Part shown: piece after piece, positions 1-5,780 of the stretch | How positions within the stretch are numbered: position 1 is the stretch's first letter | How the letters are laid out: each line of letters opens with the position of its first letter | Source: a virus | Reading direction: 5' to 3' (one strand) | IMG/VR virus record: IMGVR_UViG_3300037584_004436 | Span: 1 to 28,020 of that record | DNA length: 28,020 bases | Made by a program: the position numbers and the translations under genes | Notes under the pieces: generated by a model | Databases searched by the model: none | The model's input: the letters and a program-made list of their open reading frames with translations, nothing else | Told to the model about the DNA's origin: nothing

Positions 1-16
1 GTCATCGGTAGCCTAT

Positions 17-67
17 TTGACTTTGTATAAAAGTCGTAGTGGTGTATATTTATAATATAACTTAACC
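17..67 (+). promoter_or_regulatory. Candidate promoter for the first small-gene operon
   Basis: A perfect TATAAT lies at 51-56, about 30 bases before the start codon at 86, and TTGACT lies at 17-22. The distance between them (28 bases) is too long for a classical pair, and the hexamer at optimal spacing is weak. The string TATAATATAACTTAACC at 51-67 recurs almost exactly at 1517-1533, again with a TTGAC hexamer about 33 bases upstream. A shared regulatory module is therefore likely even if the exact promoter hexamers are uncertain. Confidence 0.45.
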
Positions 68-85
68 AACAAAAAGGAGGCAGTA

Positions 86-409
86 ATGTCAAATGTTGAG
101 CAAGAAATCACCGACTTAATCGGTGAAGTAATCCAAGATAGTACTGTTGTTGAAGATGCAGTAGACAACGCACTAAATAACAACTATGACTTTCAAGACA
201 TGCAGAGTAGAGTTGACTCTTTAGAAAGTCAGATGGACTCAAATGCTATTGACACTGATCAGATACTTATGCGACTAGCTAACCTGATCGTCAAAGATGA
301 TCCATCAAATAAAACCATAGTGTATCAAACTCATATCGACAACCTCAAGAAAGAGATTGAAGATTTGAAAAAGGCACTAGCAGACAAGGAGGAAACTGCT
401 AATGGGTAA
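86..409 (+). CDS. Hypothetical acidic coiled-coil protein (107 aa)
   Basis: I do not recognise this protein. It is acidic. Two helical stretches, roughly residues 35-65 and 80-105, show heptad-like spacing of Leu/Ile/Met with Glu/Lys/Asp between, which suggests a coiled coil and possible oligomerisation. There are no cysteines, membrane segments or catalytic motifs. The ATG at 86 has a strong Shine-Dalgarno (AAGGAGG, 9 bases upstream). The gene overlaps the next by 8 bases, so the two are probably translationally coupled. A 7-bp perfect stem-loop (108-114 with 120-126) begins 22 bases inside the coding region. As the first gene after a promoter-like element, it is probably expressed early. 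The reading frame is well supported; the function is unknown. Confidence 0.8.
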   Translation: MSNVEQEITDLIGEVIQDSTVVEDAVDNALNNNYDFQDMQSRVDSLESQMDSNAIDTDQILMRLANLIVKDDPSNKTIVYQTHIDNLKKEIEDLKKALADKEETANG

Positions 410-689
410 AACTCCACTTTTCACCGAAGGCTTCATTGAAGCCTTCGAGGAAGATCCAAGCCAGTTCATCGGCAGAACGATCTCCGAACATGAAGCTCAT
501 GAAATGTATAACGAGATGCTAGACGATCATGAAGGTGTTAACATTGGCGGAGTAATAAGAGAATACTCTCATGTTCTAAAAAGTGTTGATCCAATAATGT
601 ACAGAGTTGGCTTCAATGATTACGTTTCACACCTCGAAGAAGACCATGTTTATGTCGAGGGATACACAGAACCACCACAAGATTCCTAG
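402..689 (+). CDS. Hypothetical acidic protein (95 aa)
   Basis: Not recognised. The protein is strongly acidic and rich in Glu, Asp and His, with no Cys pairs and no membrane segment. The ATG at 402 is preceded by AAGGAGG (388-394) at ideal spacing, and the gene overlaps the end of the upstream gene, so it belongs to the same transcription unit. A near-perfect 23-base palindrome (425-435 with 437-447) lies 23 bases after the start codon, a position like that of the hairpin in the previous gene. The gene is followed by a GC-rich structured non-coding stretch. An acidic DNA-mimic or host-takeover protein would fit an early phage position, but that is speculation. Confidence 0.78.
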   Translation: MGKTPLFTEGFIEAFEEDPSQFIGRTISEHEAHEMYNEMLDDHEGVNIGGVIREYSHVLKSVDPIMYRVGFNDYVSHLEEDHVYVEGYTEPPQDS

Positions 690-800
690 TTGGTTGGGGA
701 GGCTGGACAGAAATGTCCAGCCACACTTCGTGTGACCGTACTCCACCCCGAAGTGCAGTCCCACCCCTACGGTCATCTGCAGCCAAAACCAGGTCGACAC
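690..800 (+). ncRNA. Candidate structured RNA with hairpin and pseudoknot pairing
   Basis: This non-coding stretch between two small genes is conspicuously GC-rich in an AT-rich genome. A perfect 9-bp stem (701-709 with 714-722) is closed by a GAAA (GNRA) tetraloop on the plus strand. Directly after it, 724-730 (CACTTCG) is complementary to 749-755 and 733-740 (TGACCGTA) to 768-775. These two stems interleave as in an H-type pseudoknot. A small alternative hairpin, 723-726 with 730-733, competes with the first stem. The loop between 741 and 767 is C-rich. I do not recognise the RNA class. It could be a small RNA, a processing element or a leader for the gene at 858. No convincing reading frame fills it. 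Confidence 0.5.
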
Positions 801-857
801 GATCCACGATCCATGAAACAATATCCACGAACCATTAACAATTAATAGAGGTGTAAA

Positions 858-1043
858 ATGAATTGGTTTAAATATAGTAGTATAGAAAACAATCTTAAAA
901 CTTATAATACAAAAGAAGTAAATTGTTTAGATTGCGAAGAAACATTAATAACAAGAGATTACGAAGAAACATTCACCGAATGTTATTATTGTGGATCTAA
1001 AAAACTAGGCAATGAGCAAATAAAAATAAACCCTAATGTGTAG
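858..1043 (+). CDS. Small zinc-ribbon-like protein (61 aa)
   Basis: The protein has two CxxC knuckles, Cys23/Cys26 and Cys42/Cys45, 15 residues apart. This is the pattern of a small zinc ribbon. The rest is polar and charged, with no enzymatic motif. Such proteins often bind nucleic acid or RNA polymerase, but the partner here is unknown. The ATG at 858 follows GAGGTG at normal spacing. The gene lies downstream of the structured element at 690-800, which could be its leader, and it ends inside the hairpin of a Rho-independent terminator. The next gene on the right is on the opposite strand. Base composition is strongly AT-rich compared with the preceding element. Confidence 0.75.
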   Translation: MNWFKYSSIENNLKTYNTKEVNCLDCEETLITRDYEETFTECYYCGSKKLGNEQIKINPNV

Positions 1044-1068
1044 ATCCTAGCTAGGATCTGCCTTTTTT
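1042..1068 (+). terminator. Rho-independent terminator after the zinc-ribbon gene
   Basis: A perfect palindrome (AGATCCT, loop AGCT, AGGATCT; 1042-1059) is followed by CC and seven T residues on the plus strand. It overlaps the stop codons of both the rightward gene ending at 1043 and the leftward gene ending at 1047. There is no T tract on the minus-strand side, so it should terminate rightward transcription only. Confidence 0.75.
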
Positions 1069-4264: not shown

Positions 4265-4775
4265 AACTTTAGAAGTTAAGAACATATCTCACTATGCGAG
4301 GGGTTCAGAAGAAACACCTTGTTACAATGCAACAGTATATATCAATGGTAAGAAAGCCATTGAGATTAGCAATGATGGTCGAGGTGGCATGGACTATCAA
4401 CATTCATACCCTGACTTTGGAGATGGAAGAGGTGGCATTGTTCAGAAAGCAAATGAATGGTGTGTCAAAACTTTTGGTCAAGAAAGTTTCAAGTTTATGT
4501 CAGGTGGCAAAGAAGAAACTTGCACCTATGACATTGATTTAGAACACTATTGTCATAAGGTTTTGTATGATTGGTTAGATACAAAGAAACTCAAACAAGA
4601 TCTAAAAAAGCAATATCTTTTCGTAGAAAAGGGTCAACTTATGGGATACAAGAAAAGAGCCAATGATACAGACACGGCATTCAAACATTTCTTTGAGAAG
4701 AACCACCCAAACGACAAGTGTTTAAACTTTCTACCTTTTGATGATGCCCTTAAATTATTCAAGGAATGTGCATAA
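4254..4775 (+). CDS. Hypothetical protein (173 aa)
   Basis: I do not recognise a named family. The N-terminal half is beta-rich, with two Gly-Arg-Gly-Gly segments at about residues 41-44 and 57-60 (DGRGGM, DGRGGI), the second in a conserved-looking stretch PDFGDGRGG. The C-terminal half is helical, with several Cys and His. The ATG at 4254 is preferred to an in-frame GTG at 4248, because GGAG (4243-4246) is 7 bases from the ATG but abuts the GTG. It overlaps both neighbours. It is longer than the surrounding small genes, so it may be an enzyme or a DNA-binding protein, but no catalytic motif is visible. Confidence 0.75.
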   Translation: MEIKTLEVKNISHYARGSEETPCYNATVYINGKKAIEISNDGRGGMDYQHSYPDFGDGRGGIVQKANEWCVKTFGQESFKFMSGGKEETCTYDIDLEHYCHKVLYDWLDTKKLKQDLKKQYLFVEKGQLMGYKKRANDTDTAFKHFFEKNHPNDKCLNFLPFDDALKLFKECA

Positions 4776-5382: not shown

Positions 5383-5780
5383 TGGGTAGATATTATCACG
5401 GAGATATTGAGGGCAAGTTTTGGTTTGCCGTACAGAGTTCGACAGATGCAGACTTTTTTGGAGTAGAGGGTTATGCAACACATCTTAACTATGGGTTTGG
5501 AAAAGAAGATCATTCCAAAGTTAAGGAGGGAGTTAAGAACTGCGAAGATACATTAGGCAAGTACAAAAAACTTTTAGATGAGTTTTTTGAAACAGACGGA
5601 AAAGACGGCTATAATGAGGATATGTTAATTAAGTTCTTAGATAAAAAAGAACACCCTCATAGGCATACTGAACAAGGTGTTAAGTATTACCTAGAATGGT
5701 ATGCACGATATGACTTAGGTAAACAAATAGATAATTGTATCGACAAAGAGGGTTATTGTAATTTTGAGGCAGAACTATGA
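5382..5780 (+). CDS. Conserved hypothetical phage protein (132 aa)
   Basis: It starts MGRYYHGDIEGKFWFAVQSS. The combination of an N-terminal GDI(E)GKFWF..QSS stretch with a helical middle and a C-terminal Tyr/Trp-rich segment is one I associate with uncharacterised proteins of tailed phages; I cannot name a domain. AAGGAGG precedes the ATG. It overlaps the next gene by 4 bases. Confidence 0.75.
   Translation: MGRYYHGDIEGKFWFAVQSSTDADFFGVEGYATHLNYGFGKEDHSKVKEGVKNCEDTLGKYKKLLDEFFETDGKDGYNEDMLIKFLDKKEHPHRHTEQGVKYYLEWYARYDLGKQIDNCIDKEGYCNFEAEL

Follow-up and report, generated by a model that had tools for sequence, protein, structure and literature searches.

A repeated intergenic block in phage contigs is probably a hairpin-plus-promoter cassette between exchangeable small genes

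The region at about positions 690-857 of a linear 28-kb IMG/VR virus record (36% GC; "the window" refers to the whole 28,020-nt stretch analysed) is probably one copy of a composite intergenic exchange cassette, hairpin plus promoter, that separates small exchangeable genes. We propose that the left part of the cassette acts at the RNA level. Its GC-rich tetraloop hairpin, placed just past the stop codon and supported by a small helix and a GACCGT/ACGGTC stem, would form or protect the 3' end of the upstream message and limit readthrough. The right part would act as DNA: its C-rich boxes and ACGGTCAT, set at a fixed distance ahead of a -10 sequence, would provide the regulatory region upstream of the promoter for the next gene. 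In the window copy, a weaker promoter-like site would take the place of the strong -10 sequence.

Results

Three stems in a GC-rich intergenic stretch

Positions 690-800 have a GC content of 59-62%, compared with 36% for the contig. The stretch starts directly behind the stop of one gene and ends ahead of the next, in the following surroundings:

402..689, + strand: upstream gene, 95 aa, phrog_9294-like, of unknown function, with its stop codon TAG at 687-689
858..1043, + strand: downstream gene, 61 aa, with a weak zinc-ribbon match; exchangeable, having no homologue at the same place in relatives
1040..1061, + strand: ordinary intrinsic terminator with a U-tract, at the end of the rightward unit

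The upstream gene shows weak tblastn similarity to rV5-like Escherichia phages, whose hypothetical proteins match it at ~43% across 60 residues. A tRNA-derived element or attachment site was considered and dropped, since the window has no tRNA.

An earlier note on this DNA had described a hairpin at 701-722 followed by two interleaved stems, 724-730/749-755 and 733-740/768-775. All three pair by exact Watson-Crick complementarity: GGCTGGACA/TGTCCAGCC closed by a GAAA loop, CACTTCG/CGAAGTG, and TGACCGTA/TACGGTCA, respectively. The estimate that such a set is unlikely by chance was borne out by 5000 dinucleotide shuffles of 690-800, of which 19 yielded a 9-bp short-loop hairpin, 40 yielded a 7+8 bp H-type arrangement, and a single one yielded both together. 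Competing pairings are present in the window copy, including a small helix at 722-734.

The element is a repeated cassette

We found related contigs by searching with the two upstream proteins. Orthologous intergenic regions are present in V2 (L013), V3 (L010), V4 (L012) and V6 (L011), and the stop-proximal hairpin is kept in all of them; it is identical in V2, V3 and V4, while in V6 its stem measures 11 bp and its loop 16 nt. Further downstream, these four orthologues form one long hairpin, GTGACCGTAGGGGTGGG...CCCACCCCTACGGTCAT, of which the window lacks the matching 5'-arm piece. Stop-codon readthrough into an open frame at 690-845 was also dropped, since both V2 and V6 close this frame early.

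The same contigs contain parts of the element at other places as well. Pattern scans, together with a profile built from the copies, yielded 30 near-complete copies in 19 related IMG/VR contigs; since most were found via patterns inside the conserved boxes or the -10 sequence, the apparent conservation is inflated. The common core reads ACTCCACCC, about 6 nt, GCA, a variable segment, CCCACCCC, W and ACGGTCAT. Searches of an annotated phage collection and of bacterial genomes with the element returned no match. The window itself begins within a second copy:

1..13, + strand: 3' remnant of a second cassette copy (GTCAT CGG TAGCC), cut by the contig end; in alignment it matches ACGGTCAT..TAGCC of other copies
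43..60, + strand: conserved -10 promoter sequence TGTATATTTATAATATAA, with TATAAT at 51-56, upstream of gene 86-409
86-409: gene behind the left-end -10 sequence

This remnant was detected by nhmmer at 1-64 (E=0.0059), and the homologous contigs V2 and V3 begin at the same remnant. Several contigs start or stop inside a copy, as expected where assemblies break at repeats. At one contig end (L089, reverse strand 5465-5544), a long perfect inverted repeat stands beside the copy and is probably an assembly or amplification artefact.

The nearest relatives of the DNA polymerase A and helicase are those of HTVC023P/HTVC027P-type phages, 023Pt_psg01 and DSL-LC04 (~45-52% identity). On protein similarity, the cassette contigs are distant relatives of the Pelagibacter phages HTVC023P and HTVC027P, and it is from this similarity that we infer the host. 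No cassette copy was found by nhmmer in the genomes of HTVC023P, HTVC027P or 023Pt_psg01. Promoters, terminators and intergenic elements go unmentioned in the main text of two papers on this phage group. Intergenic regions of 023Pt_psg01 (L102) at ~15.5, 16.2, 16.9 and 17.8 kb carry repeated C-rich blocks resembling GGGCCCACCC[A/T]CCCC, one of which is followed by TTGACT..TATAAA; these blocks are perhaps a distant counterpart of the cassette boxes.

The hairpin and the long-range stem are conserved, the pseudoknot is not

Three pairing elements make up the RNA side of the cassette:

701..722, + strand: stop-proximal RNA hairpin, 9 bp with a GAAA loop, beginning 11 nt past the stop codon
722..734, + strand: small helix CACAC-TTC-GTGTG, corresponding to the CAY...RTG helix seen in most other copies; G734 is common to it and the next stem
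734..739, + strand: 5' arm GACCGT of a long-range stem, which in full is TGACCGTA at 733-740 paired with 768-775

Because the variable hairpins do not align properly, RNAalifold gave no useful result for a MAFFT alignment of seven copies; hence, stems were compared copy by copy. Reading the listed stems in this way, we found compensatory double changes in the hairpin (among them GCTGGGGAG/CTCCCCAGC, GCTAGGGAG/CTCCCTAGC and CTGCAAGGGAG/CTCCCTTGCAG), such that the stem sequence varies and the pairing stays. The hairpin occupies the same post-stop place in all 16 scored copies that follow a gene, as befits the rightward RNA hairpin with a GNRA loop that the earlier note had envisaged. Its stem is 6-16 bp long and starts 4-14 nt past the stop where the upstream frame is readable; the loops are mostly GAAA, UUCG or UCAAG. 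Shuffles of each copy's region seldom produced such a hairpin (P no higher than 0.037 in any case). For copy 615 of V6 the hairpin GGGGAGC-GAAA-GCTCCCC was read by hand, the automated pick being a neighbouring AT-rich stem. The small helix, of 3-5 bp with a loop of 2-6 nt, lies between the hairpin and GACCGT in 13 of 16 copies, with CAC standing opposite GTG and CAT opposite ATG.

The interleaved stems fared unevenly in the same comparison. The core GACCGT/ACGGTC of 733-740/768-775 is kept in 16/16 gene-following copies, but 724-730/749-755, the first stem of the proposed H-type pseudoknot, occurs in the window copy only and is missing from every other copy, and the pseudoknot was dropped for this reason. 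Rfam 15 covariance models gave no match at gathering score in the window and none at E<=1 in contigs L005, L006 and L008, so a known RNA family was likewise dropped. A structured regulatory RNA built on the pseudoknot, whether small RNA, ribozyme or leader, could draw on three stems that match exactly in the window and would seldom arise by chance; with its first stem absent from homologues, no Rfam match, and the orthologous region folding as one long simple hairpin, we consider it highly improbable. Nor is there support for a discrete small RNA, for a ribozyme, or for a leader that would control translation of the zinc-ribbon gene, given a downstream gene that varies among phages and promoter-like sequence lying between element and gene. 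In some copies, those whose gene begins ~100 nt past ACGGTCAT, a further 5' leader hairpin, GAAGG...CCTTC, may precede the start codon (e.g. L078 4540-4575).

Two classes of copy separate RNA-like from DNA-like parts

The 30 copies fall into two classes. All 16 gene-following copies have both the stop-proximal hairpin and the GACCGT arm, the latter 34-60 nt ahead of ACGGTCAT. The other 14 adjoin a divergently transcribed terminase gene, and 0/14 have hairpin or arm, a contrast that does not represent 14 independent events since these first copies are all orthologous. Terminase-adjoining copies have TTACCC or TAACCC where GACCGT would stand. Copies that lack a co-directional upstream gene nevertheless keep the boxes, ACGGTCAT and the promoter. 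In the region separating the leftward terminase gene from the first copy (e.g. L078, ~4330-4480), two occurrences of TTACCC or TAACCC flank GGGGGTGGGGG, whose opposite strand is C-rich, and a leftward TTGATA..TAT promoter-like site stands ahead of the terminase gene.

The features of the hairpin and small helix, and their confinement to sites that a transcript enters, point to RNA. This bears on the view that the palindromes are DNA elements only, serving as cruciform, recombination or packaging sites with no role in RNA. In its favour are perfect arms of at least 15 bp in some orthologues, a possible product of templated repair, together with the exchange seen at the element in these contigs and the proximity of elements to the terminase gene. 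Several features indicate RNA instead: loops of the GNRA and UUCG kinds, a fixed position past the stop codon, a small helix whose loop varies, and the absence of the palindromes where no transcript enters. We therefore regard a DNA-only role as quite unlikely.

None of the tails examined behind stop-proximal hairpins has a U-tract. Termination by these hairpins is uncertain, both because they lack the U-tract that the window's terminator at 1040-1061 possesses and because in one relative such a hairpin lies between two genes without the remaining cassette. The hairpins may terminate transcription or protect the 3' end.

ACGGTCAT and a probable promoter stand at a fixed spacing in most copies

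The DNA side of the window copy consists of the following parts:

740..748, + strand: conserved box 1, ACTCCACCC
760..767, + strand: conserved box 2, CCCACCCC
769..776, + strand: ACGGTCAT, 3' arm of the long-range stem and fixed reference for promoter spacing
794..822, + strand: weak promoter-like site TCGACA-17-AACAAT, replacing the strong -10 sequence

In gene-following copies the two boxes are enclosed by the GACCGT...ACGGTC arms. TATAAT, mostly inside TGTATATTTATAATATAA, stands 46 nt (23 copies) or 45 nt (2 copies) past ACGGTCAT in 25 of the 30 copies; in the same 25 copies, the distance to box 1 takes eight values. The 20-nt linker between ACGGTCAT and promoter has a mean pairwise identity of just 0.41, which argues that the fixed spacer length is not due to recent copying alone. 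The sequence TATATTTATAAT is confined to cassette sites in the 15 contigs first compared. No clear conservation of a -35 hexamer was seen in standard copies.

The window copy and its orthologues lack TATAAT and a strong -10 sequence. At equal spacing, nnGACN plus AACAAT is found also in V2, V3 and V6. In a promoter scan of the window region, promoter-like sites were no more frequent than in shuffles, so that the scan by itself is weak evidence for the site at 794-822.

Another reading places the whole element in the upstream transcript, as a cis-acting RNA that controls elongation: either a Rho-type terminator, with an unpaired C-rich stretch coming after the hairpins, or an antitermination RNA of the put kind. 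In the HK022 put RNA, termination is suppressed by two stem-loops located where the early transcript begins. An RNA of this kind would account for the hairpin, small helix and GACCGT stem being present in gene-following copies and missing where there is no upstream gene, and the sense strand of the boxes is rich in C and poor in G. However, the boxes and ACGGTCAT are equally conserved without an upstream gene, and upstream RNA leaves the rigid spacing to TATAAT unexplained. Moreover, put elements sit in the first early leader, and here the first copies are the ones without hairpins, which speaks against put. We judge elongation control to be unlikely, and favour the composite cassette with an RNA part and a promoter part.

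Within that cassette, the ACGGTCAT octamer would sit near -62 from the start, which we take to be a usual place for an upstream activator site. We suggest, tentatively, that the GC-rich block (CCACCC boxes plus ACGGTCAT) could be the site for a phage or host regulator of the exchangeable small genes, whose promoters lack a -35 element. If so, a gene inserted between two cassettes would join the same regulon at once.

Gene exchange at the cassette

Several unrelated kinds of small gene stand behind the cassette in different phages. Compared with V2, gene 1 of the window shows 94% identity and gene 2, over its 3' half, 91%. On the hairpin side, 36 bases agree with V2 and V3 without a difference. 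To the right of ACGGTCAT, a run of 66 bases shares 98.5% identity with V6 and has no counterpart in V2. Gene 3 of the window found no match in this comparison, and the gene after it is 96% identical to V2. These switches of identity, from V2 to V6 to no match and back to V2, place mosaic breakpoints at the cassette. Because they are common to all copies, the cassette blocks may serve as short homologies for gene swapping, with homologous recombination as the putative route of exchange.

Discussion

Genes that travel with their own expression signals are known from other phages. Morons of lambdoid phages are extra genes with their own promoter and a stem-loop terminator. The cassette is similar in that a gene is carried with a promoter and a stem-loop, but here many neighbouring genes share one conserved intergenic block.

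The promoter early stem-loop (PeSL) of T4-like phages reportedly combines a stem-loop with an early promoter between small ORFs and is repeated, marking points of gene shuffling. Our cassette resembles it as a composite of stem-loop and promoter between small ORFs, repeated in a variable region where genes are shuffled, and its stem-loop lies directly behind the upstream ORF, 4-14 nt past the stop where measurable. The stem-loop of the PeSL acts as a terminator and is followed by an early promoter; the cassette hairpin may likewise terminate, and a strong -10 sequence at fixed spacing in 25/30 copies is the candidate promoter. The two differ in several respects. The cassette hairpins lack a U-tract; standard copies have no conserved -35; an extra GC-rich block, two CCACCC boxes plus ACGGTCAT, stands at a fixed distance from the -10; and the carrier is of HTVC023P/HTVC027P-like lineage rather than a T4-like myovirus. 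Since the phage is not T4-like, and terminator and early expression are putative here, we do not file the cassette as a PeSL. PeSL cassettes of T4-like phages are the subject of Arbiol 2010 and Comeau 2014, as cited in PMC4503421.

The ESAS/SAS elements of cluster K mycobacteriophages are repeated upstream inverted repeats with a variable spacer, found near gene starts and proposed to control expression (PMC12699233). They share with the cassette the repetition of inverted repeats near gene starts. ESAS/SAS repeats are 17 nt long and stand beside a SAS motif, however, whereas the cassette arms are 6-8 bp and longer in some copies only, and the cassette differs further in having hairpins behind stop codons and a strict promoter spacing. 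The SAS motif, GGGATAGGAGCCC, was not found in the aligned cassette copies.

A shared cassette of hairpin, boxes and promoter would explain how small genes are swapped with correct expression retained. It would extend the principle of the T4-like PeSL to an unrelated phage lineage, and would provide a precise signature for locating small genes and transcription units in uncultivated marine phages.
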